Assembly: GCF_947489565.1 (NCBI RefSeq)
Contig: NZ_CANLEA010000028.1
Span: 1 to 62,085 of the forward strand
Source: an uncultured Kordia sp.
GTDB lineage: Bacteria; Bacteroidota; Bacteroidia; Flavobacteriales; Flavobacteriaceae
Direction of reading: 5' to 3'
DNA length: 62,085 nt
Made by a program: the position numbers and the translations under genes. Shown one piece after another: positions 12,684 to 45,908 of this stretch (position 1 is its first letter; each line of letters starts with the position of its first letter). Under the pieces are notes generated by a model. The model was not told where the DNA came from and did no database searches. It saw only the letters and a list, made by a program, of their open reading frames with translations.

Positions 12684-12836
12684 TTATGATGAAATATATT
12701 GTGTCATGGCATTCATCGCTTTGTCAGCCATTTTTGCTTTATTCACAGTGACTTCAGCAGTTATTGAATGAATATCTGATCCTCCTAAGATTTGTGAAGC
12801 ATTTTTAATTTCGAATGTTGTTAACTTTTGAATCAT
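12684..12836 (-). CDS. Short peptide precursor with double-glycine leader
   Basis: A 50-residue peptide beginning MIQKLTTFEIKN and reaching a GG at residues 18-19 (LGGS), then a Cys-free tail rich in Ala, Met and Lys. The leader pattern (MIxKLxTFEIxN, then GG) matches the short gene at 12953-13039, so the two are paralogous leaders with different cores. Double-glycine leaders are usually removed by C39-peptidase ABC transporters; none is visible here. I chose the start at 12836 rather than an upstream in-frame ATG at 12893 because homology to the sibling begins here. A hairpin terminator follows. The function (bacteriocin-like, signalling or other) is unknown. Confidence 0.6.
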   Translation of the reverse strand: MIQKLTTFEIKNASQILGGSDIHSITAEVTVNKAKMADKAMNAMTQYISS

Positions 12837-12893
12837 CGTTTTGGTTTTTAGTGAGTTAATTTTCAATAAGATACAAAATTTCATAAAACCCAT

Positions 12894-12922
12894 AAAAAAA
12901 GCGAACCCAAAAGTTCGCCTTT
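12894..12922 (-). terminator. Terminator of the 12953-13039 peptide gene
   Basis: GCGAAC (12901-12906) pairs with GTTCGC (12913-12918), followed on the minus strand by seven T. Confidence 0.7.
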
Positions 12923-12952
12923 AATATTTTAGTACATATTTTACTAGAGTAT

Positions 12953-13039
12953 CTACAAAATAATATACTCAGTGGCTCCTGCGCCACCTGTTATTGATGT
13001 TACATTTGCAATTTCGAATGTTTTTAATTTTTCAATCAT
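12953..13039 (-). CDS. Very short double-glycine peptide precursor
   Basis: A 28-residue reading frame, MIEKLKTFEIANV then TSITGG, followed by only nine residues (AGATEYIIL). The leader is clearly related to the 12684-12836 peptide. The tiny core has no Cys and no Ser, so it is not a lanthionine substrate; it could be a decayed core or a small signalling peptide. It lies 54 bases downstream of the 53-residue precursor and is probably co-transcribed with it, ending at the hairpin at 12894-12922. Confidence 0.5.
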   Translation of the reverse strand: MIEKLKTFEIANVTSITGGAGATEYIIL

Positions 13040-13093
13040 ATATTTTCAGTTTTGTATTTTTTGTTTTAATGATTGCACATAGTTTACAACAAA

Positions 13094-13255
13094 CTATTGA
13101 GTTCCCTTACTAACTGTTGAAGTACAATTTGTATGACAACCTGTCAATTCGTTATTACTTTGTGTTCCTCTTGCTCTACCTTTTATGGCATTAGCATCAA
13201 ACTGAGAAATGGTCTCTTTTGCCAAATTCAAATTGGCTAATCTTTTTGATTTCAT
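13094..13255 (-). CDS. Lanthipeptide-type precursor peptide
   Basis: A 53-residue peptide. The leader MKSKRLANLNLAKETIS-QFD has the KLNLxKxTIS pattern of the class I lanthipeptide leaders found in Bacteroidetes (pinensin-like). The core region has two Cys (GCHTNC) with many Ser and Thr, enough to form two thioether rings. The expected GG cleavage site is replaced by KGRARG. No dehydratase (LanB), cyclase (LanC) or transporter gene lies in the window, so modification would need enzymes encoded elsewhere. It is the first gene of the minus-strand peptide cluster 13255-12684. Confidence 0.65.
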   Translation of the reverse strand: MKSKRLANLNLAKETISQFDANAIKGRARGTQSNNELTGCHTNCTSTVSKGTQ

Positions 13256-13391
13256 TGTGTAAATTTTAATTGTTAAAGATTAAATTTATGGAAACTAATA
13301 CGTAACCAATTACGGTAATACCATATTTACTTCACATGAAATCTAGTAATTTCTGGTTTTAAATAAAACAATAGCTCAGACCTAGTATTTA

Positions 13392-14066
13392 TTATCGTAC
13401 AGGAAAATCAAAGTACTGATCTCTATAAGGTTCGCCACGAAGTGTAAAATGCCACCATTCTTGCGGATAGTTTCGAAAACCATTTTGCAACATTGCTTCT
13501 TGTAGTAGTTTTCGATTGTGTAATTGTTCTTTTGTTAAATCTTGATACGCCACCCAGGATATTTTTCCAAAGAAATCATAGGAACTTCCCATGTCTAATT
13601 CCTTTTTGGTGTCCAAATTAATCAGCGTAATATCAACGGTACTTCCGCTACTGTGACGTGATTTGGTTGCAATATATTCAAGTCGAAATAAATCTTTTTT
13701 AGCGACAGTTGGATAGTATTCTTGCTTCATCAAAGTATCACTTAAATTTCTTGCCCAACGGCGAAAATGATCTACTGCGCGTTGTGGTCTGTAGGCATCA
13801 AATACTTTGATTCCCAAGTTTTTTTCTTTCAGGACTGCTTGTACTTTTTGTAATGCCAATGTTGCTGGCAATGATAAAATACATTTTTCTGCTTCGTAGC
13901 CATCAATATGTGTTCCGATGAAATTATCAGAGCAAAAATAACGCAACTCTAAAGAAATATCTGGAATATAATCAGTCACGTACACAAATCCTTTTGGAAG
14001 TTGCGATGATGATTGCAAGGTAAAAGCACTTACAAGAATTAATAGTATATTTATTGACTTAAGCAT
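13392..14066 (-). CDS. D-alanyl-D-alanine dipeptidase, VanX/DdpX type (M15D)
   Basis: A 224-residue exported zinc dipeptidase that splits D-Ala-D-Ala, usually for peptidoglycan recycling. A signal-like hydrophobic start (residues 1-20) is followed by the catalytic domain. The zinc ligands and base of the family are visible: His138 and Asp145 in SRHSSGSTVD, Glu203 and His206 in QEWWHF, and the substrate-positioning Arg93 in DAYRP. There is no VanH or VanA gene next to it, so vancomycin resistance is not implied. The gene is divergent from the TPR protein at 14109, 42 bases apart, leaving a short shared promoter region. Confidence 0.9.
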   Translation of the reverse strand: MLKSINILLILVSAFTLQSSSQLPKGFVYVTDYIPDISLELRYFCSDNFIGTHIDGYEAEKCILSLPATLALQKVQAVLKEKNLGIKVFDAYRPQRAVDHFRRWARNLSDTLMKQEYYPTVAKKDLFRLEYIATKSRHSSGSTVDITLINLDTKKELDMGSSYDFFGKISWVAYQDLTKEQLHNRKLLQEAMLQNGFRNYPQEWWHFTLRGEPYRDQYFDFPVR

Positions 14067-14108
14067 GATAATATTTCAACTGAATACAAACATACAGATT
14101 AAAAGTAC

Positions 14109-15296
14109 ATGAATAACCTTAATAACCAAAGTACGAACAGTTTTCAAAAAAATATGATCACAATAATTGTGGCTGGCATCGTACTTGTGGCTGCAGTTTA
14201 TTTCGGAAAAAAATATACTACCTCAAAAAAAGTAGCTGAGAATACTGAATATTATAATCAGTTTTCTGATGAAGCTTATATTGAATTTGCTAAAAAACTA
14301 GAACAATCAATTCACACTAAAAAACCAGATTTTTTTGATGAAAGTGTAAATCTCGCTTCATTTTTTAGCTTTTCACAGAAAGAATTGGAAGGAAGTCTCA
14401 ATAAAAGAAGAATCTTAAACGCCGCAAAACCAATTTTAAAATTTGGGAAAAATATTAGTTCCTCAATACTTTTTGAAAAGGATTTTAAGTTTGTTCGTTT
14501 TTATAAAGAAAATGGTGTCCCGCATATAATTTTTAGAATATACAGTCCGCAATTTATCAATTTTGTAGATTTTACTGTTGGTATAAAAAAAGATACCTTG
14601 GTTTTAAATGATGCGTATAACTTCATTTCTGGAATCAACTTTTCTGATATTATCTCTGATATTTATTACAAATCGATCAATAGCAACAGTGCTTCCCTTT
14701 CAAACGTAAAAACATACAGAAAAATTCAATCTGGTATAGAGGTTGGCACGTATGAAGAAGCATATAACTTACTTACTTCAATTCCTGAAAAGAATAGAGA
14801 TGCACTTCACTATCAATTTTTATTAATTGCAGCTTCCAATCTTGATGATGATAAATTTCTAGAAGTCATTGCACAATTGAAAGCACAAAAACCAGATGAC
14901 AAACGCTTACACGCTTATTTAGATTTTAGAAAAAATGTGATTACTGGTGATATCGATCAACTAAATACAGCTATTGATGCATTAAAAGAGTATGTCGGAG
15001 AAGATCCTGTTTTTGACCTGTTTAGAGGTTTGATGTATTATTATCAAGGTGATTCTGAAACTTCATCATCATTTTTTAATCACCTGATTGCCAATGTTCC
15101 TGATTTTTATGATGCATATTTATACAAACTCTGCAATTACATCCTTGATGATAAAACGACAGAAGCATTGGAAATTGTTGTGCAAATAAAAGATCGCTTT
15201 TCAATAGATGAAAAAGCCTTTACCGAAGAACTTTTTGAATTTAAAGCTTTCACCAGCTCAGAAGCTTTTAAAAATATTTTCAAAAGTGCAGAATAA
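14109..15296 (+). CDS. Membrane-anchored TPR-like protein, unknown function
   Basis: A 395-residue protein with one N-terminal membrane segment (about 15-33) and the rest outside the membrane. Residues about 40-195 form an alpha/beta region I do not recognise; about 205-395 is helical with the spacing of degenerate tetratricopeptide repeats (ALHYQFLLIAASN, VFDLFRGLMYYYQGD, AYLYKLCNYILDD). The role is not deducible. The next gene (AlkB) starts inside its last codons, so the two are translationally coupled. Confidence 0.7.
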   Translation: MNNLNNQSTNSFQKNMITIIVAGIVLVAAVYFGKKYTTSKKVAENTEYYNQFSDEAYIEFAKKLEQSIHTKKPDFFDESVNLASFFSFSQKELEGSLNKRRILNAAKPILKFGKNISSSILFEKDFKFVRFYKENGVPHIIFRIYSPQFINFVDFTVGIKKDTLVLNDAYNFISGINFSDIISDIYYKSINSNSASLSNVKTYRKIQSGIEVGTYEEAYNLLTSIPEKNRDALHYQFLLIAASNLDDDKFLEVIAQLKAQKPDDKRLHAYLDFRKNVITGDIDQLNTAIDALKEYVGEDPVFDLFRGLMYYYQGDSETSSSFFNHLIANVPDFYDAYLYKLCNYILDDKTTEALEIVVQIKDRFSIDEKAFTEELFEFKAFTSSEAFKNIFKSAE

Positions 15297-15888
15297 CCAA
15301 CATACACAAGGGTTTCCATTACATTTACCAGACGCGGACATTAGGTATTATCCAAATTTTATCAATAGTAAAGACGCCACAAGTATTTTTGAAACACTAT
15401 TACAAGAAACGCCTTGGCAACAAGATGATATTAAAGTTTTTGGGAAAGTGTACGCACAACCAAGGCTGACAGCTCTTTATGGAACAAATCTGAACACATA
15501 CAGTTATTCTAATATTGAAATGACGCCGCATCCATTAACAACTACACTAGCAGATTTAAAACAAAAAGTAGATCAAACCTGTGAGGCAAATTTTACCACA
15601 ATGCTCCTCAATTATTATAGAGATGGAAAAGATAGTAATGGTTGGCACGCAGATAACGAAAAAGAATTAGGCACTAATCCAGTCATTGCTTCTTTAAGTT
15701 TTGGGCAAGCACGTTTTTTTCATCTAAAACATCGTACCGATAAAACGCTAAAGCATAAACTTTTATTAGAACACGGAAGTTTATTATTGATGAAAGGTGA
15801 AACGCAGCATAAGTGGTTGCATCAAATTCCGAAAACGACCAAACAAATTCAAGGTCGCATCAATATTACATTTCGCATTATAACATAA
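15286..15888 (+). CDS. alkB: Alpha-ketoglutarate-dependent dioxygenase, AlkB family
   Basis: A 2-oxoglutarate/Fe(II) dioxygenase of about 200 residues that removes alkyl groups from damaged bases by oxidation. The iron ligands are the His and Asp of GWHADNE and the His of TQHKWLHQI, and the Arg of GRINITFR holds 2-oxoglutarate. An in-frame ATG at 15208 would overlap the previous gene by 89 bases; I prefer GTG at 15286 (11-base overlap) because the conserved family region begins soon after. The overlap implies translational coupling with the TPR gene. Confidence 0.88.
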   Translation: MQNNQHTQGFPLHLPDADIRYYPNFINSKDATSIFETLLQETPWQQDDIKVFGKVYAQPRLTALYGTNLNTYSYSNIEMTPHPLTTTLADLKQKVDQTCEANFTTMLLNYYRDGKDSNGWHADNEKELGTNPVIASLSFGQARFFHLKHRTDKTLKHKLLLEHGSLLLMKGETQHKWLHQIPKTTKQIQGRINITFRIIT

Positions 15889-15916
15889 AAAAGCATCCCG
15901 AAGGATGCTTTTTTCT
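15889..15916 (+). terminator. Terminator of alkB
   Basis: AAAAGCATCC, loop CGAA, GGATGCTTTT, then T residues, starting directly after the stop codon. Confidence 0.85.
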
Positions 15917-16176
15917 TTAACTAACCAACCAAAAATGTAACAAGCTCTTTTTAGAAAGTAACCAGCTTTGCTAAATGTCATTGCCTTGTTACACTTGTAT
16001 ATAAACAAACGGCGTGCCAAACTTTATTTTTCCTTTCAAAACGCATGAAGTAATTGATTCTAAATTGTACAAAAAAATGATACCTCCAAAAATATTTTGC
16101 CTAACCTCTTGGAAATTATCAATTTATTTTTATATATTTATGATATCATTTTAATATCAATCTAAAACATCTAAAC

Positions 16177-17037
16177 ATGAAAGAAGAGAAAATTATTGTG
16201 CCTGCTAATGGGTATTTAATGTTATTTATATTTTTTATCCTATTTTTTGGAAGCATTGCTACCATGATTGCCTTAGAAAATCCACTATTTATTCCAGGTA
16301 TTGTGATAGCCATTGTGCTAGCATTTGGGTTTTTAATGGTAAATCCAAACAACTCACGTGTACTCTTATTATTTGGTAAGTATGTAGGAACCGTAAAACA
16401 GAATGGTTTTTATTGGGTAAATCCTTTTTTCACAAAAAAGAAAATTTCTTTACGTGCAAGTAACTTTGATAGTGAACGTTTAAAAGTAAATGACAAGCTC
16501 GGAAATCCAATTATGATTAGTACCATTTTGGTTTGGAAAGTACACAATACCTACAAAGCTGCCTTTGATGTAGATAATTATGAGCATTTTGTACGTGTAC
16601 AAACAGATGCAGCAGTTCGTAAATTGGCAAGTATGTATCCGTACGATAATTTTGCTGATGAAGGACATGATGAAGACATTACTTTACGTTCTAGTGTGAA
16701 TGAAGTGAGTGAAGCTTTAGAGAAAGAATTGGAAGAGCGTTTGTCAATTGCTGGAATTGAAGTATTGGAAGCGCGCATTGGATATTTAGCCTACGCACAA
16801 GAAATTGCAAGTGCTATGCTAAAGAGACAACAAGCTACTGCTATTATTGCTGCAAGACATAAAATTGTGGAAGGTGCTGTAAGTATGGTAGAAATGGCAA
16901 TTAACGAACTTAACAAAAAAGAATTGCTCATACTTGATGAAGAGAAAAAAGCTGCTATGGTAAGTAACTTATTAGTGATTTTATGTGGAGATAAGGAAGC
17001 TTCTCCTGTAGTAAACACGGGAACTTTACATCAATAA
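16177..17037 (+). CDS. SPFH/band-7 domain membrane protein
   Basis: A 286-residue protein of the SPFH (stomatin/prohibitin/flotillin/HflK) superfamily. Two hydrophobic segments at about 9-30 and 35-55 are followed by the band-7 domain (about 55-230) with VLLLFGKYVGTVKQNGFYWV, which is a typical start of this branch, and a helical C-terminal tail. These proteins form oligomeric membrane platforms. The gene heads a tight five-gene operon (spacings 2, 21, 2 and 5 bases) that ends in an Arc-like DNA-binding protein; this combination with an SPFH gene recurs in many bacteria but its job is not established. Confidence 0.85.
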   Translation: MKEEKIIVPANGYLMLFIFFILFFGSIATMIALENPLFIPGIVIAIVLAFGFLMVNPNNSRVLLLFGKYVGTVKQNGFYWVNPFFTKKKISLRASNFDSERLKVNDKLGNPIMISTILVWKVHNTYKAAFDVDNYEHFVRVQTDAAVRKLASMYPYDNFADEGHDEDITLRSSVNEVSEALEKELEERLSIAGIEVLEARIGYLAYAQEIASAMLKRQQATAIIAARHKIVEGAVSMVEMAINELNKKELLILDEEKKAAMVSNLLVILCGDKEASPVVNTGTLHQ

Positions 17038-17039
17038 TA

Positions 17040-17222
17040 ATGAACAATAAACAAATCACAGCTATTGCGCTTGGCACAGCTTTAGGAACAAGCATAGGAA
17101 CCAGTATTGGTGCCGTTATGAGCGATGTAGCTATGGGCACATTGATCGGTTCCATTATAGGAACTAGTATTGGTGTCATATTAAGTTTTATTGTTTTTGA
17201 CGAGGATAAAGAAGAAAAGTAA
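17040..17222 (+). CDS. Glycine-zipper membrane peptide
   Basis: A 60-residue protein with two hydrophobic stretches rich in GxxxG spacing (GTALGTSIGTSIGAV and IGSIIGTSIGVIL), the glycine-zipper pattern that packs helices against each other in a membrane. The C-terminal DEDKEEK is acidic and charged. It starts three bases after the SPFH stop codon, so it is co-translated and may pack with it. Function unknown. Confidence 0.65.
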   Translation: MNNKQITAIALGTALGTSIGTSIGAVMSDVAMGTLIGSIIGTSIGVILSFIVFDEDKEEK

Positions 17223-17243
17223 AAACCATTAATTTTGTAAGTG

Positions 17244-17408
17244 ATGAAAGAATATAAAGTTGTAAAACCAAGTTTAGGTTGGAGAGACAGAAGCGAAAAA
17301 TTAGAAGAAATTCTAAATAATCATGCAAAACAAGGTTGGGTTTTACATACTGTCTCCAAACATGAAGGCTATGTACAAGTCATCTTTGAACGTAATAAAA
17401 ACAGATAA
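17244..17408 (+). CDS. DUF4177-type small protein
   Basis: A 54-residue protein, MKEYKVVKPSLGW...LEEILNNHAKQGW then VLHTV and VIFER. The YKVV start, the central ExxLNxxAxxGWxL motif and the final FER strand match the DUF4177 fold, a small beta-alpha-beta-beta domain of unknown function. It sits in the SPFH operon two bases before the next start codon. Confidence 0.7.
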   Translation: MKEYKVVKPSLGWRDRSEKLEEILNNHAKQGWVLHTVSKHEGYVQVIFERNKNR

Positions 17409-17410
17409 TT

Positions 17411-17929
17411 ATGTATGCAAACAGACCAAGAATAAAAGTGCCTTTAGCACCAATTGATACTATCTTAGAAAGCACCACAGCTGCATTGCTTGTTGTTTTG
17501 TGGGTATATGTAATTGTTTCCTATGCTTCTTTGCCAGAAATTGTGCCCACACATGTCGATTTAAGTGGGCAAGTAGATGGAACAGGCAACAAGACAACGA
17601 TATGGTTTTTACTTGGAATTACAACAGTTGTGACAATTGGTTTATACGCTTTAACAAAGTTTCCTCATATTCATAATTATATGGTAGAAATTACAGAAGA
17701 TAATGCCGAACACAACTACCAAATGAGCAATCGTTTATTGCGCTTTGTCAATATTTTAACCTTACTTTTGCTTGCGTATGTTTGCTATTCTATCATACAA
17801 AAAGCATTTGGGAACGACTTTTTCTTAGCGTCTACAATGATGTATGTAATTATTGGATATTCCGTGGCAATGCCTATTGTTTTAATTGTATTTATGTTGA
17901 AAAATCAAAAAGCTCCAAAGTCAAAATAA
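17411..17929 (+). CDS. DUF1648-domain membrane protein
   Basis: A 172-residue protein with four hydrophobic segments (about 25-45, 62-82, 110-130, 140-162). LPEIVPTHVDLSGQVDGTGNK between the first two is the signature of DUF1648, also found in SdpI immunity proteins. Alone it is not enough to claim an immunity role, but a DUF1648 protein together with an SPFH protein in one operon points to a membrane-related stress or defence job. Confidence 0.8.
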   Translation: MYANRPRIKVPLAPIDTILESTTAALLVVLWVYVIVSYASLPEIVPTHVDLSGQVDGTGNKTTIWFLLGITTVVTIGLYALTKFPHIHNYMVEITEDNAEHNYQMSNRLLRFVNILTLLLLAYVCYSIIQKAFGNDFFLASTMMYVIIGYSVAMPIVLIVFMLKNQKAPKSK

Positions 17930-17934
17930 GAATT

Positions 17935-18120
17935 ATGGCAAAAAAGAAAGCCTTTGCATTACGAATCAATGAAGAGATGTTGAAAGCTATTGAAAAATGG
18001 GCTGCGGACGAGTTTCGCAGCACCAATGGACAAATAGAATGGATGCTCATGCAAACGCTAAAAAATGCAAAAAGAGCTCCTAAAAAGAAACCTGATTCCT
18101 CACAGCAACCACCTGAATAA
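17935..18120 (+). CDS. Arc-like ribbon-helix-helix DNA-binding protein
   Basis: A 61-residue basic protein. MAKKKAFALRINEEM forms the ribbon strand, then LKAIEKWAADEFRST and NGQIEWMLMQTLKNA give the two helices of the Arc/MetJ fold, followed by a Lys/Pro-rich tail. It is the last gene of the SPFH operon, five bases after the DUF1648 stop, and is the obvious candidate for an autoregulator of this operon. The final codons lie inside the terminator stem. Confidence 0.75.
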   Translation: MAKKKAFALRINEEMLKAIEKWAADEFRSTNGQIEWMLMQTLKNAKRAPKKKPDSSQQPPE

Positions 18121-18146
18121 TTTTTAAGGTGCTTGCTGTATTTTTT
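18103..18146 (+). terminator. Terminator of the SPFH operon
   Basis: CAGCAACCACCT (18103-18114) pairs with 18127-18138 with one mismatch and is followed by TATTTTTT. The left arm lies within the last codons of the Arc-like gene. Confidence 0.8.
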
Positions 18147-18254
18147 CCTATTAATTGCATATTTCATCAATCTTAACATTAATTAACACTATAATCTGTT
18201 ACGTTTTCAAAAAAATCATACTAATTGCAGCATTGAATGTAAACAGAGAAAATC

Positions 18255-20311: not shown

Positions 20312-20542
20312 TTATCCACTTATTACATTACAGGTATCTCTTCCTGAGGCTCCACAATCATTATTTATATCCGTTTTTGGTTCTCCTATAGTACATGTAG
20401 TAGTGGCACAACTAGCTTGAATCGTTATGACTTCAGCACTTTGTTCTTCAGGAACATTCTCAGTACCACCTTTCAGAAAATATGCTGTTAACTTTGCTAC
20501 TTTAAACTTTCTTAATTGTAGTTGTCGTCTCTCTTTTTTCAT
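20312..20542 (-). CDS. Lanthipeptide-like Cys-containing precursor peptide
   Basis: A 76-residue peptide. The basic N-terminus (MKKERRQLQLRKFKVAKLTA) leads to LKGG (Gly25-Gly26), a double-glycine cleavage site. The predicted core of 50 residues has four Cys (SC, TC, DC, TC) among many Thr and Asp, consistent with thioether or disulphide rings. The leader differs from the KLNLxKxSIS type of the 22533 and 45753 genes. No modification enzyme lies nearby. It is 101 bases downstream of the TPR-AraC regulator on the same strand. Confidence 0.6.
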   Translation of the reverse strand: MKKERRQLQLRKFKVAKLTAYFLKGGTENVPEEQSAEVITIQASCATTTCTIGEPKTDINNDCGASGRDTCNVISG

Positions 20543-20643: not shown

Positions 20644-22341
20644 TTAGTCTTTTTGTTGATCTTGTTTAACTTTTTTAATAAAATATCCAGGTTTTAATCC
20701 TGTTCGCTTTTTAAAAACTCTGTAAAAAGCTTGCGGGTTTGAAAATCCACCTTCCGTCGCAATCGCATTGATCGTATATTTTTGATACACTGGATCATGT
20801 TGAATGCGATCTATCAAATAATCTATTCGTAAGTCATTAATGTAAGTCGTAAAGTTTTTTCCTTTGTATGAATTGATGATTTTTGATAAGTATTTTGAAT
20901 TGGTATTGACAATTTTTGCCACATCGCTCAAGGAAATTTGATTTTCCAAATATTGATGTGCTTTTTCAAATGTATCCAACTGCGCTAAAATCTCTTGTAC
21001 AACAGCATCGTCTATATCTACCGGAACTATAAGTGTATGAGTATCTTTTACATTTATCTCTTCTTCAATACTACTATTCGATTTTTCAACAATCTCGTCA
21101 TACAATTTTTTGTACTTCTTATATTTCAGTCTTGATTGATAGTAATATCCTAAAACCAAAAGCAACAAAATTGTTAGGTATATGCTTCCTTGAATAATCC
21201 AACTCTTTTCTTTTTCTACTACTGCTTTTTCTTCTTGTAATGATTGAATTAAACGATTTCTGTTTGCTACGAGTTCAAGATTATCATATTTTTTAGTCAT
21301 CGTATGCGAAAGGTATTTATAATCAGCATGAATGATACTATCTAGTTTTAATAATTGATTTGTGTAGTGTAACTGAAGTTTTAGATTTCCTTTGGTTTTC
21401 GAATCTTTTATCAAATACTCGTATGATTCACGTAATGGTGGCCATAAATCATTGGCTTCTGTAAACACGGAATCTATACGTTCAAAATAGTGCAGTGCTT
21501 TTTCCTTTTTCCCTAATGCATGATAACTTTTTGCCAAATAAAAATCGGCTACCACTTTGCTTTGTGCTGATAAATGCGGCGTTGCTTTTTGTATGCTATC
21601 TATAGAAGCTTGATATTCACCCTTAATATTCAGGTTGATTCCTTCATTGACAACAAAAAAATAAAATAATTTCTGCAAATTATGTTCTAACGCTAAGGAA
21701 ACGCCTTTTGTATTGATTGCTGAACATTTGGCTACTTGTCCAGATTCATAATACACCGAAGACAATTGAAACAAATTATGCAATTGCCCAACTACATACA
21801 TTTTATCCTGATTTTCATTATAGGCAATACATTCTTTAAACAGCGTTTCTGCTTCTGTGTAGTTGCCTAAAATTCGTTTTAGAGAAGCAATATTATATTT
21901 AATATCATACTTATAAGCATCATTCTCATGCAGTTTTGCTTTTGATTCTGCTATTATATAATTATCCAAAGCTTCTTGATAATCGCGTTGTGAGAATAAA
22001 ACACTTCCTTTTGCTATATAAGCTAGCATTGGAAAATCGCCAATCTTTTTTAAATCTTTGGTATAAAAAATAGTGCTATCTAAATAGTGAATTCGAGTAG
22101 TAGCATCAGGTGCTTTTAATCCTAAAATATAATAAGCTCGCCCAATTAATAGTTTTCTTTGGGCTTTTTTCACTTTTATTAGGTAATGCTCCACATCTGT
22201 TTTAAGATGCTCAAAACTGATATTTTTTCGATACATTTTTTCCGTCAACATTTCTATCTCATTCTGCAATGCATCATTCTTTTGTCCATAGGCAGAAATC
22301 ATCACAAAAAACAAACAAAAATATATAATCAATTTTTTCAT
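20644..22341 (-). CDS. Membrane TPR-AraC transcriptional regulator
   Basis: A 565-residue protein. A signal-like start (MKKLIIYFCLFFVMI, ending YGQ) and an N-terminal TPR region (about 25-370: repeats such as YYILGLKA, ALDNYIIAES, AETLFKECIAYN, ALHYFERID) would lie in the periplasm. One membrane helix (about 385-405, IYLTILLLLVLGYYYQ) precedes a cytoplasmic AraC-type helix-turn-helix (about 460-560, with IATEGGFSNPQAFYRVFKKR). This layout is common in Flavobacteria and suggests a one-component sensor of an extracytoplasmic ligand. An in-frame ATG at 22353 exists; I chose 22341 because it gives the signal directly. Two peptide precursors flank it. Confidence 0.8.
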   Translation of the reverse strand: MKKLIIYFCLFFVMISAYGQKNDALQNEIEMLTEKMYRKNISFEHLKTDVEHYLIKVKKAQRKLLIGRAYYILGLKAPDATTRIHYLDSTIFYTKDLKKIGDFPMLAYIAKGSVLFSQRDYQEALDNYIIAESKAKLHENDAYKYDIKYNIASLKRILGNYTEAETLFKECIAYNENQDKMYVVGQLHNLFQLSSVYYESGQVAKCSAINTKGVSLALEHNLQKLFYFFVVNEGINLNIKGEYQASIDSIQKATPHLSAQSKVVADFYLAKSYHALGKKEKALHYFERIDSVFTEANDLWPPLRESYEYLIKDSKTKGNLKLQLHYTNQLLKLDSIIHADYKYLSHTMTKKYDNLELVANRNRLIQSLQEEKAVVEKEKSWIIQGSIYLTILLLLVLGYYYQSRLKYKKYKKLYDEIVEKSNSSIEEEINVKDTHTLIVPVDIDDAVVQEILAQLDTFEKAHQYLENQISLSDVAKIVNTNSKYLSKIINSYKGKNFTTYINDLRIDYLIDRIQHDPVYQKYTINAIATEGGFSNPQAFYRVFKKRTGLKPGYFIKKVKQDQQKD

Positions 22342-22532
22342 TGAGCGAATCACGTTTCTAACAAATATAGTCCAAATGTATCTGCCGCTCTTTCAATTTT
22401 TAGGTGAAATTTTTCATAATTCACTGAATTCTAATCACAATTCAAGGAATTGATATAGGTGTTTATTGACTCTACTTATTTTTAGCTATTTATTTGTTAC
22501 TGAATTTATTACACACAAAAACTTATACAATT

Positions 22533-22727
22533 ATGAAAAAACAGGATTTAAAAAATTTGAAATTAAACAAGAAATCAATCTCTAACTTCAATCAAAGTAA
22601 GATTGTTGGTGCAGCGCCAAACACAAAAACATATTGCAATTGTGGACAAGCACCAGATCATCCCTTAACTATTGAAACTATTTGTTGGGGACCTTCTGGA
22701 ATGATGCAATGTGGAGGTTCATACTAA
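22533..22727 (+). CDS. Class I lanthipeptide-type precursor peptide
   Basis: A 64-residue peptide starting MKKQDLKNLKLNKKSISNFN, the canonical leader of Bacteroidetes class I lanthipeptides (KLxLxKxSISxxN). Instead of GG it has VGAA at the expected cleavage zone. The core holds four Cys (YC, NC, IC, QC) with Thr and Ser available for rings. The first ATG (22494) was rejected because the leader begins at 22533. A terminator follows at 22740. It is divergent from the TPR-AraC gene, sharing about 190 bases of upstream sequence. Confidence 0.7.
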   Translation: MKKQDLKNLKLNKKSISNFNQSKIVGAAPNTKTYCNCGQAPDHPLTIETICWGPSGMMQCGGSY

Positions 22728-39494: not shown

Positions 39495-39550
39495 AACTTA
39501 ATTTTAAGTTGAATAACGTATAAATAAGTTTGTTAACTTAAAATTAAGTT
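39495..39550. promoter_or_regulatory. Two BlaI-type operator palindromes
   Basis: AACTTAA-TT-TTAAGTT at 39495-39510 and AACTTAA-AA-TTAAGTT at 39535-39550, spaced 40 bases apart, plus a half site AACTTA at 39475-39480. They lie 40-95 bases ahead of the BlaI-type repressor gene. Confidence 0.65.
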
Positions 39551-39589
39551 GTATAATTGTAGTGCTAATTAATTAAAACTCATAAAGTA

Positions 39590-39961
39590 ATGATCACGTT
39601 AACTAAAGGAGAAGAGAAAATAATGAAAATTCTCTGGGATATTGAAAAAGGTTTTATCAAAGATATTATTGAACAATATCCGAATCCAAAGCCGCCTTAC
39701 AATTCTGTATCTACAATTGTACGCGTGTTGGTTCAAAAGGAAATTGTAGGTTATAAAGCCTATGGAAATTCACACCAATACTATCCATTAATTAGTAAGA
39801 AAGAATATAGTAAAGGGCAAATGAAGCGCTTAGTAACTGATTATTATAATAATTCACTTTCTCAAGTAGTTAATTTTTTTACGGAAAGCAAAAAACTAGA
39901 TGAGAAGGAATTGGATGAGGCAATGAGAATGTTAGAAGAACTAAAAGCTAAGAAAAAATGA
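39590..39961 (+). CDS. BlaI/MecI/CopY-family repressor
   Basis: A 123-residue winged-helix repressor. TKGEEKIMKILWDIEKGFIKDI and PYNSVSTIVRVLVQKEIVG are the first helices and recognition helix of the Penicillinase_R family; the C-terminal helix dimerises. These repressors bind palindromes until a partner protease clears them. The partner (M56 sensor) begins four bases before this gene's end. Two AACTTAA palindromes lie upstream as the expected operators. Confidence 0.9.
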   Translation: MITLTKGEEKIMKILWDIEKGFIKDIIEQYPNPKPPYNSVSTIVRVLVQKEIVGYKAYGNSHQYYPLISKKEYSKGQMKRLVTDYYNNSLSQVVNFFTESKKLDEKELDEAMRMLEELKAKKK

Positions 39962-41637
39962 TCAAATTTCTCATATATCTTTTAGAGTCTAGTGCCATAT
40001 TAGCCGTATTTTATCTACTCTATGTTGTGATGAAAAAGGAGACTTTTTTTAATTTGAATCGGTTTTTCCTTCTGGGAATTGTCGTTTTTTCATTGCTATT
40101 GCCTTTAATGAGTTTTGATTTTAGCCAAGGTAAAATAGCTGTGATAGATAACTCTATTGAGCAGTTTAGTAAGTTTAGAATGTCTTTTTATGAAAATGCA
40201 GAAGCATTAGAGTATCAGGTTTATAAAAACCCAGTTTCTCTGGATGACTCTACTACAAAAGTAATTGAAACCGCTTCTATCGATTGGATATCCATTTTAT
40301 TGATGGCCATAATTGGCATCTATATTATTGGAGTTTTATTCTGTTTGTCCAAACTGTTTTGGAATTTTAGAAGGCTTCGGAAAATGATTTTGATGCATCC
40401 TCAGGAACAAATAAATGGAATAACAGTTGTGAAGGTTTCACAGCCAATTGCACCTTTTTCATTTTTAACATATGCTTTTGTGTATGATAAAGTAATTGAT
40501 ACGCCAGAAATTGATCAGATTATTGCCCATGAAAAAGCACATATTGAACAGAAGCATTCTATTGATTTAATATGTATACAATTTTTAGCAGCATTTCTGT
40601 GGTTCAATCCACTGATTTGGATGCTTATTAACTCTTTAAAAGCAGTACATGAATATATAGTAGACAAGAAAATAATTAAAGCAGGTTATTCTTTAGTTGA
40701 TTACCAGACCTTACTTTTGAGACAATTAGTTAGCAACAACTCATGCGGGTTGGTACACAATTTTAATTTATCATTTATAAAAAAAAGAATCACCATGATG
40801 AAAAGTAATAAATCAGGATTTAAAGGAAAATTAAAAGTAGCGCTGACAATAACTTGTACTATCTTATTTAGTCTACTATTATTTCAATGTAATTCGAAAA
40901 CTGATGAAGCAGAAGCGCTTTTAAACAAGTATGAGAAAGATAGAGGTATTGTAATGAATATGTCTGATACTGGTTTTCTTCGTCCTCCAGTATTTGCTGT
41001 AGCAAACGATAAGCTTACAGTAAATGGAAAACCTTTTACGATTGCAGAAATAGAAGCTGCGGTTAAAGATTTATTGACTCATGGCGTAATTCCCATGAGA
41101 ATTGACCGTAATCAAAACATGAAAAAGGTACGAGAAATACAGAATGAGTTTAGAAAGTTCGATAAAAGAAAAGTGATCTATTATGGTGAAACAGCTTCTG
41201 GCAAACAAATGATTCAGCCGTTTTTAGTTCCTCCTTTGTATTGGGCAGATCCTTCTCATGATGATACTTTACCTGCGAGAATTGATTTGACAAATGCCAC
41301 AATAGAAGGTAATGTAGCGACACTAAATGGTATTGAATATCTTCAACTTAATGTAAGTAGTACAGGAGTAAATTATAAAGAAGAAGTATATAGGTTCGTA
41401 AAAAAGCATGTTGATAAAAAATCAAGAGCATATTTAATCAGCATAACATACGATGATAATGATGTTTTTGAAAATTATCTAACAAATCTTGCAGCTGTAT
41501 TTCAAGGTTTCGAAAAAATATATGACGTACGTGCTCAGGAATTGTTTGGTAAAGATCGTCGTGAATTAGTAGAGAGATCAGAATTTTTAAAAATTTCCGA
41601 AGGAGTTTACAAAGGAGTTTTTATAGCTGAAAGGTAA
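39958..41637 (+). CDS. BlaR1-like M56 metallopeptidase sensor
   Basis: A 559-residue membrane protein with a four-helix N-terminal part (about 3-22, 36-55, 110-132 and about 285-302) and the M56 zinc site HEKAH (His191, Glu192, His195), as in BlaR1/MecR1. The C-terminal extracytoplasmic region (about 305-559) is not a penicillin-binding domain by eye, so the signal need not be a beta-lactam. The gene overlaps the repressor by four bases (ATGA type), a standard bla operon layout, so the pair acts as sensor and repressor. No obvious target gene besides the operon itself is seen. Confidence 0.88.
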   Translation: MIKFLIYLLESSAILAVFYLLYVVMKKETFFNLNRFFLLGIVVFSLLLPLMSFDFSQGKIAVIDNSIEQFSKFRMSFYENAEALEYQVYKNPVSLDDSTTKVIETASIDWISILLMAIIGIYIIGVLFCLSKLFWNFRRLRKMILMHPQEQINGITVVKVSQPIAPFSFLTYAFVYDKVIDTPEIDQIIAHEKAHIEQKHSIDLICIQFLAAFLWFNPLIWMLINSLKAVHEYIVDKKIIKAGYSLVDYQTLLLRQLVSNNSCGLVHNFNLSFIKKRITMMKSNKSGFKGKLKVALTITCTILFSLLLFQCNSKTDEAEALLNKYEKDRGIVMNMSDTGFLRPPVFAVANDKLTVNGKPFTIAEIEAAVKDLLTHGVIPMRIDRNQNMKKVREIQNEFRKFDKRKVIYYGETASGKQMIQPFLVPPLYWADPSHDDTLPARIDLTNATIEGNVATLNGIEYLQLNVSSTGVNYKEEVYRFVKKHVDKKSRAYLISITYDDNDVFENYLTNLAAVFQGFEKIYDVRAQELFGKDRRELVERSEFLKISEGVYKGVFIAER

Positions 41638-41671
41638 TAGTAAACTGAAAGTATTAAATATTAATCATTTG

Positions 41672-41777
41672 TCAGTTCGAGCATTATCGTAGATACCGAG
41701 CGTAGCTCATGAGAACACTGGAAAAACTATAATTTCAATTGAATCTCGACTGCGCTCGATTTGACATTTGGTGTAAG
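41672..41777. repeat. REP-like inverted elements
   Basis: GTCAGTTCGAGC (41672-41683) and TCTCGACTGCGCTCGATTTGA (41744-41764, quoted in part) form an inverted pair of the REP type common in Flavobacteria. The gene-free stretch 41638-42077 is filled by this pair and the tandem duplication that follows. Confidence 0.5.
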
Positions 41778-41863
41778 TTTATAAAAATCAAACATATGGC
41801 AAATTAGTTATATCAAACTCACGTTTATTATTATTCCTTCTAGGTTTACACCAATCTGGAATT

Positions 41864-42093
41864 TCCTTCGACTGCGCTCAGGATAAACTTCTCGTCCTAA
41901 CATAATTTTAGCGTACAAAAAAAGCAGCAATCGTGAAGATTACTGCTTAATTTATTACTTTGAGCCGATGGAGGGACTTCCTTCGACTGCGCTCTGGATA
42001 AACTTCTCGTCCTAACATAATTTTAGCGTACAAAAAAAGCAGTAACCATGAAGATTACTGCTTAATTTATTACTTTGAGCCGATGGAGGGACT
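41864..42093. repeat. 115-base tandem duplication carrying a tRNA-Thr 3' end
   Basis: Two copies (41864-41978 and 41979-42093) differ at four positions. Each begins with the REP piece CCTTCGACTGCGCTC, contains the terminator hairpin and ends inside the tRNA-Thr 3' end (GAGCCGATGGAGGGACT). The inner copy is the functional one; the outer copy holds only the last 16 tRNA bases. Confidence 0.85.
42032..42063 (-). terminator. Terminator of tRNA-Thr
   Basis: AAGCAGTAA...TTACTGCTT (stem 42038-42063), followed on the minus strand by seven T. A diverged copy lies at about 41917-41948 in the outer repeat unit. Confidence 0.8.
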
Positions 42094-42151
42094 CGAACCC
42101 ACGACCTGCTGATTACAAATCAGCTGCTCTAGCCAGCTGAGCTACATCGGC
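42078..42151 (-). tRNA. tRNA-Thr (anticodon UGU)
   Basis: A complete 74-base cloverleaf on the minus strand. The acceptor stem is GCCGATG with CATCGGC, the anticodon loop is TTTGTAA with anticodon TGT, the T arm holds GGTTCGAGTCC, and the D arm is GCTCAGCTGGCTAGAGC. No CCA is encoded. Its terminator follows, and its last 16 bases are repeated once further downstream. Confidence 0.95.
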
Positions 42152-42208
42152 AAAGCGGTTGCAAATATAAAAAGCTTTTTATTTTTTGCAAACCTTTTTT
42201 TTATTTTT

Positions 42209-42475
42209 TTAAAGACTGTTGATTTTTGTTACCAATTCTGTTGCTTTTGTCTCTAATGATTGTCTGATTCCTTTGAAGTGTGTTTTTACATTTTCAACAC
42301 CTCTTTTGTTAGTTTCTGCGATCAATTCATCAAAGCCTTTGATAGATTCGTCAATGATTTCTTCACTCTTAGTAGCATCTGCATCCGGATTTGCCATTTG
42401 CCATAATAAAGCTGCGTCAATGATATCTCCAAAAACGTAGTTTAAGTCCTTTTTTAAATCTCTTTTATTCGACAT
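42209..42475 (-). CDS. Small conserved helical protein, unknown function
   Basis: An 88-residue, Lys/Glu-rich, fully helical cytosolic protein (KKDLNYVFGDIIDAALLWQM near residues 8-27, then ETKATELVTKIN at the end). No motif or family is recognised. It sits 57 bases upstream of tRNA-Thr on the same strand. Its coding-like composition and length suggest a real gene. Confidence 0.6.
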   Translation of the reverse strand: MSNKRDLKKDLNYVFGDIIDAALLWQMANPDADATKSEEIIDESIKGFDELIAETNKRGVENVKTHFKGIRQSLETKATELVTKINSL

Positions 42476-42576
42476 GGTGTATATTTTTTTGCAAATTTAA
42501 ACTAAAATGGTATATAATTTGTTATAAACATCACAAATGTTAGTAGGTTTAAGTTTAATTTTTTAGTTTTATACCA

Positions 42577-42702
42577 ATGAATGCTTTAGTACAATTATAT
42601 CGCCAATTTATGAATCGTAACGCACAAACGAAGTGCGCCATGATCTATATTCCCGTATCGAATTCAAAACGTACCTATAATAAGCATCGACATAAGTATT
42701 AG
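42577..42702 (+). CDS. Small ORF of 41 codons, leader-peptide candidate
   Basis: A 41-residue reading frame (MNALVQLYRQFM start, ends KHRHKY), basic and without recognised homology. It ends 33 bases before a terminator-like hairpin (42735-42764), followed by another small ORF at 42799 and the 124-residue gene at 42934. The order resembles a leader with attenuation. There is no independent proof that it is translated. Confidence 0.3.
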   Translation: MNALVQLYRQFMNRNAQTKCAMIYIPVSNSKRTYNKHRHKY

Positions 42703-42734
42703 TTAACAATTCAATATCTATATTATAAACTTAC

Positions 42735-42764
42735 AAAGGTGCTTTTTACAAAGCACCTTTTTTA
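42735..42764 (+). terminator. Terminator-like hairpin upstream of small ORF 2
   Basis: AAAGGTGCTTT (42735-42745) pairs with 42750-42760, then TTTT. It would end a transcript coming from 42577 or attenuate read-through into 42799. Confidence 0.7.
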
Positions 42765-42798
42765 TTTTTAACCTGTTTAATTTTTAAAATTATTTATT

Positions 42799-42921
42799 AT
42801 GAAATCCACAAAAAATATTACCCAGATGATCGCCATGACAATTCGAATTTTACAACCCTTTTTCGGGATGCAAAAATCCTATACGCCTATTGAACCGATA
42901 CCTCTATTGTTACACCATTAA
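42799..42921 (+). CDS. Small ORF of 40 codons
   Basis: A 40-residue reading frame (MKSTKNITQMIAM start, ends IPLLLHH), 12 bases before the start of the 124-residue gene at 42934. It may be translationally coupled to it or be a chance frame. No homology recognised. Confidence 0.3.
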   Translation: MKSTKNITQMIAMTIRILQPFFGMQKSYTPIEPIPLLLHH

Positions 42922-42933
42922 ATTTTTTACATT

Positions 42934-43308
42934 ATGAACACATTAGCACAAAATAAAATACAAACAAATATTCAGTTTTTAGTTACGAAGAAAGTAACAA
43001 ACCGCAATGGATTTTTACATCCACATATTCTTTTTGACAAAATTCAAAAAGTAGCCACGTATCCGATTAGAGAATTTTATATTCATGAAGTTCCTTCTAT
43101 TGTCGATTATACGTTTAAAATGACCAAAAGCGCTCGTTTAAACGATTCTTTGACAATTCAAGCACAATTGATTCAACAGGACGAAAAAAAGTTAATGGTG
43201 CGCATTATAGTCACCAAACCAAAAAAGAAATCAAAAACCGAAGAAGTCATTTGTAATGCTTTGTTTGGCTTTCCACTGTTGGAGAAACCTATACGTAAAG
43301 TTTCGTGA
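42934..43308 (+). CDS. Hotdog-fold (acyl-CoA thioesterase-like) protein, tentative
   Basis: A 124-residue protein with one helix (GFLHPHILFDKIQKVATYPI, about 27-46) followed by four or five long beta strands (VDYTFKMTKSARL, SLTIQAQLIQQD, KLMVRIIVTKP, VICNALFGFPL), the order and lengths of a hotdog fold. Family members often hydrolyse acyl-CoA or bind acyl-ACP, but catalytic residues are not clear here. The two small ORFs upstream share its strand. A terminator follows directly. Confidence 0.45.
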   Translation: MNTLAQNKIQTNIQFLVTKKVTNRNGFLHPHILFDKIQKVATYPIREFYIHEVPSIVDYTFKMTKSARLNDSLTIQAQLIQQDEKKLMVRIIVTKPKKKSKTEEVICNALFGFPLLEKPIRKVS

Positions 43309-43316
43309 GTTATAAG

Positions 43317-43351
43317 ATTCCCAAGTTGTTTACTGCTTGGGATTTTTTTTT
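43317..43351 (+). terminator. Terminator of the 42934 gene
   Basis: CCCAAG (43320-43325) pairs with CTTGGG (43336-43341), followed by nine T from 43343. Confidence 0.75.
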
Positions 43352-43491
43352 AGCACGAGTTGGAAACTCGCGCTAGCTTCTGGTTAGATTTCTTAGACTT
43401 GATTAGACTTCTTAGACTTACTTAGACTTTTAGATTGTTGGACTGTTAGTATTTTTATTTTTTTTAGCACGAGTTGGAAACTCGCACTAGC
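43352..43491. repeat. REP-like pair with TTAGACTT tandem repeats (copy 3)
   Basis: Two copies of AGCACGAGTTGGAAACTCGC, at 43352-43371 and 43466-43485, flank a run of TTAGACTT-type units (43384-43432). The REP unit itself is a hairpin (GCGAGTTT/AACTCGTG type). The combined block separates the hotdog gene and manA. Confidence 0.65.
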
Positions 43492-43535
43492 TTCTCAATA
43501 CTAATATCTTAATACTCAATACTAACTCCTCAATA

Positions 43536-44510
43536 CTACTTAATATATACTTCCAACAATTCAGAAGCTTCGTCTGTGCTTATTTTTATGTTTTTGAGGG
43601 AAGCTGGTAGTAATAATGTTTCTCCAAACTTGAGTACTTCTTTGTACAAGTTTGTTTCAAAGGTTACGTTTCCTTTTACACACATGTATATGACAAAAGA
43701 ATCTTTGTCGTCATGATTCAATATTAATTCTCCTGTGAATGGAATGAGATTCGTAGTGAAATATGGACAGTCTACAATGGTTGTGACTTCGTTTTCTGCT
43801 TCTTTGTAGTCCGTTTTATAGTTTTTATGCAATGTATAGTCAATTGCATCTAAAGCTAAAGCTGTGTGCAATTCACGACCGTTTCCTTGTGCATCTACTC
43901 GATTCCAATCGTAAATGCGATAGGTAATATCTGAAGTTTGTTGAATTTCCGCTAAGACAATTCCGCCACCAATGGCATGAATTCTGCCCGTAGGCAAAAA
44001 ATATACATCTCCTTTTTTTACTTCTTCAAAGTTGAGAATTTCTGTAAGTGTATTGTCTTCCAGATGTTTTTGATATTGTTCTTTGGTGACTTCCTGATTG
44101 AAACCAACCATTAATTTTGCACCTTCATCCGCCTGCATTACATACCACATTTCAGTTTTTCCAAATGAGTTGTGACGTTCTTTGGCCAATTGATCATTAG
44201 GATGTACTTGAATCGATAAGTCGCTTTTAGCATCTATGTATTTGATGAGCAGCGGAAATTTTGTTCCAAATGCATCGTATACTTTTTTTCCTAGTAATGC
44301 TGATTGATAGGTTTCGCTCAATTCTTGAAGCGTTTTCCCTTTTAGAACACCTTCAGCAACGACAGAAGGTTCTCCTTTTACATCCGATAGTTCCCAACTT
44401 TCACCAATAGCTTCTCCCGAAACATTTTTATTGAGTTGTGTTTGCAGTTTTTCTCCGCCCCAAATACGTTCTTTATAGATTGGCTCGAATTTTAAAGGAT
44501 GTAGTATCAT
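43536..44510 (-). CDS. manA: Mannose-6-phosphate isomerase, type I
   Basis: A 324-residue cytosolic zinc enzyme converting mannose 6-phosphate and fructose 6-phosphate. [14 protein letters not shown] and the [28 protein letters not shown] stretch carry the zinc ligands and active-site residues of the type I family. It starts 8 bases after the stop of the next-upstream gene on the minus strand (QueD-like), so both may share a transcript. It feeds mannose units into cell-surface polysaccharides. Confidence 0.93.
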   Translation of the reverse strand: [324 protein letters not shown]

Positions 44511-44518
44511 ATTTTTTG

Positions 44519-44929
44519 TTATTCTCCGGTGTATTTTACAAAGTTTCTAGGTGTTTCATACAATACTACTTCTAATTCTAGTGAAGTACTGATATGCTTT
44601 CTTAGTTTGTTCCAAATGACTACCACAATGTTTTCTGCTGTTGGATTTAAGTTTTTAAACTCCGGAACATCTAAGTTTAGGTTTTTATGATCAAAGGCAT
44701 CTTCCACTTCCGAACGAATGAGGTCTTTGAGAATTTTTACATCCATCACATATCCCGTTTCTGGATCTATGGGACCTTTTACACTCACAATCATTTCGTA
44801 ATTGTGCCCATGAAAGTTTGGATTGTTACATTTACCAAAAACTTCGTTGTTTTTAGCATCGTCCCAATCTGGTCGATATAATCGGTGCGCTGCGTTAAAG
44901 TGTGCTCTTCTACTTACGGTAACTTTCAT
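44519..44929 (-). CDS. 6-pyruvoyl-tetrahydropterin synthase / 6-carboxy-tetrahydropterin synthase (QueD-like)
   Basis: A 136-residue zinc enzyme of the PTPS/QueD family, acting on dihydroneopterin triphosphate in queuosine or tetrahydrobiopterin synthesis. The zinc ligands are FNAAHRL and HGH (NFHGHNYE) and the active-site Cys is in GKCNNPN. An in-frame ATG at 44953 would add eight residues; 44929 matches the family start. Lengths of 120-150 are usual. Which of the two reactions it performs cannot be told from the sequence alone, although queuosine synthesis is the more common bacterial role. Confidence 0.85.
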   Translation of the reverse strand: MKVTVSRRAHFNAAHRLYRPDWDDAKNNEVFGKCNNPNFHGHNYEMIVSVKGPIDPETGYVMDVKILKDLIRSEVEDAFDHKNLNLDVPEFKNLNPTAENIVVVIWNKLRKHISTSLELEVVLYETPRNFVKYTGE

Positions 44930-45015
44930 GTGTATATATTGTTTGTTTTTCATTGGTTACATGCTGTTCACTAATAATCAATGTATTTAGTAATAAACTT
45001 TTTAACATGCTCGTT

Positions 45016-45540
45016 TCATATATCCACTTTTATGTGTTCATAAAATTTTTCAAATATTATTTTAAACCAAGCTGTATATGCATCTGGATTTGCCGCAATA
45101 TCATCTTTTACCGCTTGCACGTCCATCCATTTCCAAGAAGCGACTTCATCAGGATTGATTGTAGGTTCATCATTGTATGTTCCTATCATTACATGATCGT
45201 ATTCATGTTCGGTTAATCCGTTGTCAAAAGCTGCTTTGTATATGAACGAAACTGCTTCCGCAAGTTCCGTAACAAATCCCATTTCTTCTTGCAATCTTCG
45301 TTTACCCGCAGCAATGTTACTTTCACCTTCGCGTTGGTGACTGCAACATGTATTGGTCCATAGTCCTGGAGAATGGTATTTGTGTAAGGCGCGTTGTTGA
45401 AGCATTAATTCGCCTTTATCGTTGAGAATGAATACAGAGAAAGCCCTGTGAAGCAATGCTTTTTCATGCGCCTCGATTTTTTCCATTAGACCGATTTGCT
45501 CATCATTTTCGTTTACTAGAATTACGTTTTCTTTTGTCAT
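45016..45540 (-). CDS. idi: Isopentenyl-diphosphate delta-isomerase, type 1
   Basis: A 174-residue Nudix-fold isomerase converting isopentenyl to dimethylallyl diphosphate, needed for isoprenoids. The active-site Cys lies in NTCCSHQ (Cys65/Cys66) and the catalytic Glu in EHEYDH; metal-binding LQEEMGF and the WTNTCCSH stretch agree with type 1 enzymes. It ends 87 bases from the QueD-like gene on the same strand. It stands apart from other isoprenoid genes. Confidence 0.93.
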   Translation of the reverse strand: MTKENVILVNENDEQIGLMEKIEAHEKALLHRAFSVFILNDKGELMLQQRALHKYHSPGLWTNTCCSHQREGESNIAAGKRRLQEEMGFVTELAEAVSFIYKAAFDNGLTEHEYDHVMIGTYNDEPTINPDEVASWKWMDVQAVKDDIAANPDAYTAWFKIIFEKFYEHIKVDI

Positions 45541-45752
45541 ATTTTTTGTTGGAACACAAATTTACGAAATAGCTTTCTGTGTATATTATACTTATTTGCT
45601 ATTTTTTAGTTAAAATTAACATAAAGCATCTAATTTATTGATAAATGAATTTTGTTTCTTATGTGTCTTTTAAAGAAATACTACACTTTGCACGATTTGA
45701 AGAATATTGTTTTGCTCTAGTTTTATCGTAATTAATTTTTAAAACTTTTATT

Positions 45753-45908
45753 ATGAAAAAACAACATTTAAATTCATTACACTTAAACAAAAGAGCCGTT
45801 TCTAATTTTAAATCTACTACAATAACAGGAGGCGGAAAGATTCCTTTAACGATAGCTAAATCATGCTTAGGTATTTGCTATAGTGATCTTTGTGATACAA
45901 CTGATTAA
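45753..45908 (+). CDS. Class I lanthipeptide-type precursor peptide
   Basis: A 51-residue peptide starting MKKQHLNSLHLNKRAVSNFK, the same leader type as the 22533 gene. A clear double-glycine stretch (ITGGGK) ends the leader. The 23-residue core has three Cys (KSC, GIC, DLC), plus Ser and Thr that could form thioether rings. No modification enzyme is nearby. The gene is isolated between idi and a tautomerase gene and has its own terminator at 45956. Confidence 0.7.
   Translation: MKKQHLNSLHLNKRAVSNFKSTTITGGGKIPLTIAKSCLGICYSDLCDTTD

Follow-up and report, generated by a model that had tools for sequence, protein, structure and literature searches.

Four short genes in a 62,085-nucleotide stretch of the genome of an uncultured Kordia sp. 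(hereafter the window; it is contig C28 of a 6.42-Mb genome, G000, labels of the type G001 to G010 denoting other Kordia genomes) probably belong to a family of class I-type lanthipeptide precursors that is hyper-expanded across the genome and served by a single LanB locus. Judged by sequence, the hallmarks of this family are a shared leader, unrelated cores rich in cysteine and threonine, a wide scatter over the genome, and one LanB locus with a split LanB, a LanC and a C39 exporter.

The original prediction had singled out six short open reading frames (ORFs) in the window with leaders of modified-peptide types. All six are present, intergenic and translatable, with leaders as described, four on the reverse and two (22533-22727 and 45753-45908) on the forward strand, and the cysteine counts given for four of the cores (2, 4, 3 and 4) are correct (Table 1). 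The treatment of the six as one kind, however, is not supported. The four peptides with cysteines share one leader family which, by its motif and model scores, is of the Bacteroidota class I lanthipeptide type; the LxLxKx5L motif is exact in 20312-20542 (LQLRKFKVAKL) and ends in F instead of the last L in the other three, and all four cores combine Cys with Ser/Thr. A single family for all six ORFs has to be rejected, given the near-zero score of 12684-12836 against the leader model of this genome. 12684-12836 and 12953-13039 are instead a separate family of Cys-free double-glycine peptides that fits its own pattern, MIxKLxxFEI..GG, and has relatives in the corresponding place in sister genomes (G005, G006 and G008 for the former; G005 and G007, with the end ATEYIILL, for the latter). 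Searches of NCBIfam and Pfam with these two peptides returned nothing at an expect value (E) of 1, and the shorter one falls below the length range of the leader-model scan (ORFs of 38-130 amino acids, aa).

Table 1. Precursor-like genes and the linked regulator gene in the window
Feature	Positions	Strand	Length (aa)	Leader	Cys in core	Other properties
Type A precursor	13094..13255	-	53	MKSKRLANLNLAKETISQF	2	34.2 bits to genome leader model
Type A precursor	22533..22727	+	64	MKKQDLKNLKLNKKSISNF	4	39.3 bits to leader model
Type A precursor	45753..45908	+	51	MKKQHLNSLHLNKRAVSNF	3	37.0 bits to leader model
Type B precursor	20312..20542	-	76	MKKERRQLQLRKFKVAKL...LKGG	4	16.3 bits to leader model
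TPR-transmembrane-AraC-type regulator	20644..22353	-				PF12833 (E 1.2e-12), PF00165, several TPR families; paired with precursor 20312-20542
Cys-free double-glycine-leader peptide	12684..12836	-	50		none	0.7 bits to leader model, outside the lanthipeptide leader family
Cys-free double-glycine-leader peptide	12953..13039	-	28		none	End ATEYIIL

How large, then, is the family to which the four genes belong? A scan of G000 with the NCBI model NF038153 (class I lanthipeptide leader L1a) scored 150 among 289 candidates, of which 142 proved to be short ORFs with the expected architecture. The other 8 were excluded; one of them (C31:12861) looks real but has no visible ATG start. The leader model was built from 142 leaders of G000 and is blind to the cores; 13094-13255 is among the training leaders, so that its score is not independent, and the other three window precursors are outside the training set. 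At 12 bits or more, this model picks 241 ORFs in 1.477 Mb that comprise the match stretches, the enzyme loci and the window, a region chosen for matches and hence rich, and 11 ORFs in 20 random tiles (400 kb) from the rest of the genome, drawn from 29 contigs that make up 5.77 of the 6.42 Mb; at a threshold of 20 bits, these numbers become 217 and 6. In reversed DNA (1.88 Mb), no ORF attained 12 bits, the best scoring 11.4. Thus, the wider search for the leader pattern in short ORFs that the original prediction had called for yields a firm count of 252 leader-bearing precursor ORFs in 1.877 Mb (29%) of G000, spread over 28 contigs and 123 loci, 60 of which are singletons, and 213 of these leaders end in double glycine (GG). 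Scaling the tiles to the remaining 4.95 Mb gives about 136 more (Poisson range 68-244) and a genome total of roughly 310-485.

The leaders and the cores of these ORFs behave quite differently. Mean leader identity is 47% (27% for shuffled sequences) whereas mean core identity, at 27.7%, is close to that of shuffled cores (26.3%), and at a threshold of 60% identity the 252 cores form 230 clusters. Although the ORFs were picked by the leader model alone, each of the 252 cores contains Cys together with Ser/Thr; Cys accounts for 11.2% of core residues compared to 0.09% in the leaders and 0.82% in long ORFs. Among ORFs outside the training set, Cys is present in 110 of 110 (at least two in 109), as against 2419 of 4754 other small ORFs.

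As the original prediction had noted for the window, neither the LanB N-terminal domain nor LanC nor C39 gives a match at E <= 0.001 on contig C28; the matches sit on other contigs, and the synthetase and C39 transporter that it expected elsewhere in the genome are indeed found there. G000 carries exactly one gene with a LanB N-terminal domain (PF04738), six LanC-domain matches and C39 proteins. The LanB gene, on contig C2, is preceded by LanC and followed by a separate elimination-domain protein (PF14028), so that LanB is split; further on are two precursors with the same leader and one type B precursor behind a regulator with TPR and AraC domains, and the locus also encodes an HlyD-like protein and a C39 protein with an ATP-binding cassette (ABC)-type ATPase end, both recognized by eye. 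The C2 enzymes match structurally solved dehydratases of the NisB type (E 3e-23), with a weaker match to NisC (E 1e-7), and this LanC retains the WCYG and CHG motifs that hold the zinc. Only 7 of the 252 precursors have a LanB or LanC gene no more than 10 kb away. The prediction that precursors are scattered far from one central machinery fits this gene content, from which we infer the modification itself.

Each of the 11 Kordia genomes compared has exactly one LanB (PF04738) and 23-60 L1a leader matches (E <= 0.01). In G003, a single contig, the only LanC-domain protein is located beside the one LanB. Its 87 leader matches (E <= 10, some uncertain), in 57 loci unevenly spread along the chromosome (Kolmogorov-Smirnov p 0.005), include none within 20 kb of LanB or LanC, the median distance being 802 kb; one type B precursor, outside these 87, stands behind a regulator at the LanB locus. 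A random 400 kb of G003 contained 6 leader ORFs, and its reversed copy 0. In a sample of 299 Flavobacteriaceae genomes, for each of which no more than 25 candidates were scored, 17 gave a leader match (E <= 0.01); the two Kordia in this sample, one being G000, have at least 24 and at least 20 such matches and the best other genomes 14 and 10, so that in this sample the expansion is strongest in Kordia.

By analogy to known class I enzymes, which carry out these steps, the leader, LxLxKx5[L/F] and usually GG-ended, would bring each peptide to the one LanB, which would dehydrate Ser and Thr via Glu-tRNA; LanC would then close the thioether rings, and the C39 exporter would cleave at GG and export the product. 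The peptides 12684-12836 and 12953-13039 would use C39 export only.

Several observations weigh against this scenario. Only 36 of the 150 scored NF038153 matches in G000 have printed scores of at least 22 bits, the curated cut-off, the remainder falling below it; three of the window peptides score 12, 13.2 and 15.9 bits against this cut-off, and 20312-20542 gives no match to this model at E 1. The excess of Ser/Thr N-terminal of Cys is weak (0.224 vs 0.210, about 2.2 standard deviations of shuffles), and we dropped this asymmetry as support. The total for G000 is an extrapolation, the firm number being 252. Furthermore, LanB is not the only candidate lanthionine system in the genus. On contig C16 of G000, a class V-like trio of an APH-type kinase, a HopA1 lyase and LanC, for which the LxmK model gives 64.9 bits, under its cut-off of 315, adjoins an L1a precursor, which could bring a second system into play; 10 of the 11 Kordia genomes have a LanC whose size and score are class V-like, the trio itself having been seen in G000, G002 and G006, and LanC frames of LanM size (974-982 aa) occur in three (G001, G005 and G007).

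So could the scattered peptides be modified mainly by enzymes other than LanB? Apart from the class I cyclase and that of the trio, the six LanC-domain matches of G000 include four at three satellite loci (on C2, C6 and C27), each with a nucleotidyltransferase, an L1a-type precursor and LanC, and either the trio or these satellites might be the main route. Such a possibility draws on the fact that every class V-like or satellite locus in G000 adjoins a precursor of the same leader type, and on the wide occurrence of the class V-like-size LanC. We nevertheless consider it unlikely: G003 has LanC for neither system and yet many precursors, the satellites on C2, C6 and C27 show no dehydratase (PF04738), and a related nucleotidyltransferase stands in or beside LanB/LanC class I clusters of Flavobacterium sp. 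ASV13 and Chryseobacterium paridis, which makes it look like a class I accessory.

A different objection concerns the peptides themselves, which might be exported Cys-rich peptides, held by disulfides or reduced, with the leader acting only as a C39 export signal and no lanthipeptides being formed. The prevalence of GG-ended leaders, the C39 proteins of this genome and the weak Ser/Thr-before-Cys asymmetry are all compatible with this explanation. The number of Cys is odd in 108 of the 252 cores, however, which argues against plain disulfide peptides; Thr makes up 12.7% of the cores as opposed to 6.2% of long ORFs, the leader type is the same as that of the precursors at the LanB locus, and one LanB is kept in all 11 genomes. 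We thus give little credence to unmodified peptides and return to LanB-dependent lanthipeptides as the preferred reading.

The window loci can also be followed through the other Kordia genomes. Orthologues of 13094-13255 occupy the same locus in G003, G005 and G007 (4 of 11 genomes with G000), with nonsynonymous divergence (dN) of 0.05-0.33 vs synonymous divergence (dS) of 0.42-1.77, dS being saturated in 2 of 6 pairs. Those of 45753-45908, in G005 and G009 (3 of 11 with G000), keep all three core Cys (dN 0.08-0.10 vs dS 0.52-1.2) and adjoin the same gene, isopentenyl-diphosphate-isomerase-like as named by eye. At the 22533 locus, G002 and G003 carry other precursors, the cores of which bear no detectable resemblance to that of 22533-22727 (shuffles did as well in 149 and 357 of 1000 cases), and no precursor was found in the flank examined in the other 8 relatives. 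Hence some of these genes persist across species and others turn over. That many of the ORFs are relics of a decaying, repeat-like family with little function, as this turnover and the 230 core clusters might be taken to imply, is highly improbable given the Cys in every core, the dN far below dS with conserved Cys in the orthologues of two window genes, and the fixed spacing behind regulators described below.

The original prediction regarded 20312-20542 as a single precursor. This did not hold: the ORF sits 101 bp downstream of the regulator 20644-22353, and this arrangement recurs about 30 times in the DNA examined. Among 28 groups of long-ORF sequences tested for proximity to precursors, the best was enriched with p 3.8e-9 (35 of 53 members within 1.5 kb vs 362 of 1299 ORFs overall); single linkage had added histidine kinases to this group, the core of which consists of TPR-AraC proteins, mostly of 540-630 aa. 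A model of this core matches 33 proteins, one of them a kinase by its sequence end, and 28 of the remaining 32 regulators are followed on the same strand, within 300 bp, by a scored precursor and two more by an unscored similar ORF. The model was built from such pairs, yet it scores the regulator sequence and not position. In 28 of the 29 seed pairs, the two genes are 75-135 bp apart, and in the remaining one 257 bp; in the stretches from relatives, all six regulators found have a like ORF 86-96 bp downstream, and the LanB locus carries such a module in all five genomes examined (G000, G002, G003, G006 and G009). By a crude test, 15 of 29 regulators combine a hydrophobic stretch at the N-terminus with an internal membrane segment; the regulator in the window shows a hydrophobic segment near residue 380 and, by the same test, no N-terminal one.

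At these approximately 30 loci, the upstream regulator probably controls its own precursor, and that it also senses the peptide is a guess. The sensor halves have a mean identity of 21% and the DNA-binding halves 51%. Sensor similarity is correlated, more strongly than in shuffles, with core similarity (r 0.25, p 0.0006, without same-locus pairs) and with leader similarity (r 0.21, p 0.006), and that of the DNA-binding half with core similarity (r 0.13, p 0.037). We do not accept the sensor-core correlation as proof of receptor pairing because a shared duplication history would explain these correlations too. Nor could we retain ATCCTTC as a shared upstream element: present at 10 of 29 regulator-linked precursors and 0 of 463 other genes, it seems, by eye, to fall within the final part of the regulator gene and would there be read as Tyr-Pro-Ser, and its core TCCTTC is found between regulator and precursor in none of the 29 pairs. 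The flavobacterial promoter word, TANNTTTG, is not enriched before lone precursors (14%, compared to 25% of other genes) and precedes 31% of the regulator-linked ones.

How does this family relate to known systems? Walker 2020 (PMC7268733) describes class I precursors of Bacteroidetes with LxLxKx5L, often with GG and C39, from a search that restricted the distance between LanC gene and precursor. The Kordia genes share with these Bacteroidota class I lanthipeptides (NF038153 type; pinensins, named in Walker 2020) the leader, GG, C39 and LanB with LanC; in the portions of these sources at hand the latter are described as clusters, whereas 245 of the 252 Kordia precursors are more than 10 kb from LanB or LanC. 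The accessible parts of two further papers, on a Kordia genome and on the Flavobacteriaceae (PMC7477175, PMC10734526), report clusters for lanthipeptides or for ribosomally synthesized and post-translationally modified peptides and make no mention of scattered precursors, nor is there a report of scattered Bacteroidota precursors in the titles and abstract openings of the mainly open-access literature on lanthipeptides and on AraC/TPR proteins. The Cys-free peptides 12684-12836 and 12953-13039 resemble C39-exported double-glycine peptides in their GG leader, and C39 genes exist in G000; the difference is that no C39 gene matched on the contig of the window.

The closest likeness is to the prochlorosins of marine picocyanobacteria with ProcM and SyncM, in which, according to the parts of this literature available, one promiscuous synthetase and one leader family go with many distant precursors; in Kordia, the likeness is one of gene content. 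As far as these excerpts show, prochlorosins involve a class II LanM and Nif11-type leaders, and the largest one-enzyme families, with 29 and 79 precursors, are both class II (PMC12328550), whereas Kordia has class I LanB and LanC, another leader and 252 precursors in 29% of one genome. There is no LanM in G000, the LanC-domain frames of which (340-427 aa) are too short for it, although three relatives have frames of LanM size. One LanB, a conserved leader and unrelated cores make up a prochlorosin-type design, but other LanC systems are present too. In terms of predicted gene content, the Kordia set is the class I counterpart of the prochlorosins and not a member of the prochlorosin family, and as a putative one-enzyme, many-products library it appears larger than the cyanobacterial ones reported in the available sources.

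A more far-reaching possibility, which we put forward tentatively and regard as rather doubtful, is that Kordia harbors the largest known one-enzyme lanthipeptide library, with roughly 300-480 precursors per genome, nearly all of them with a private core, and one LanB acting in trans, in which about 30 precursors would each be paired with a TPR-transmembrane-AraC receptor responding to the modified product of that precursor after its export, such that the library would consist in part of peptide signals and receptors. The reason for a bacterium to maintain a single promiscuous synthetase together with a large set of peptides is an open question of the prochlorosin field, where function is called unknown (abstract of PMC10783134). 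In Kordia, the same design comes with other enzymes and, apparently, several times more substrates; one genome (G003) has a single LanB and a single LanC, and the regulator partners may reveal when and why single peptides are made. Mining restricted to the neighbourhoods of synthetases would overlook nearly all these precursors.

Some further observations concern the additional LanC loci. Triads of LanC, nucleotidyltransferase and L1a-type precursor (L045, L046, L048; L129-L136) occupy the same place in several Kordia with no dehydratase nearby and, in contrast to most scattered precursors, their precursors share similar cores. Relatives of the nucleotidyltransferase (37% and 32% identity) adjoin LanC and LanB in Flavobacterium sp. 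ASV13 (L209 6001-11691) and Chryseobacterium paridis (L210 5974-12649). A new dehydration route involving this enzyme is disfavoured, and its role as an accessory of class I clusters seems likelier, because these relatives stand in or beside LanB/LanC clusters of two other genera. Several LanC-like proteins (L048 9950-11011, L045 8833-9852 and L129-L131) lack both motifs, WCYG and CHG, that the remaining aligned cyclases have. Directly before the class V-like trio lies a GPTGTQGC-type repeat protein (L044 7829-9586 at G000:C16, L236 2502-3491 and L237 2008-3315) of 585, 329 and 435 aa in three Kordia, with 60 Cys, 102 Thr and 6 Ser in G000, which may be a giant many-ring substrate; upstream of it are an S8-family peptidase (tested in G000) and a protein of 138-144 aa.

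Elsewhere in G000, L080 (G000:C5:273695-274910) contains three ORFs with VELxEEQLExVAGG stretches, which we take to resemble precursors with nitrile-hydratase leaders (proteusins). The largest ORF of the window, 51361-61902 on the reverse strand, encodes a highly repetitive protein of 3513 aa. Finally, 7 of the 11 Kordia genomes, G000 not among them, carry a different precursor at the 13094 locus (L195-L205), its core being of the CNTW(W/F)DCWL type.

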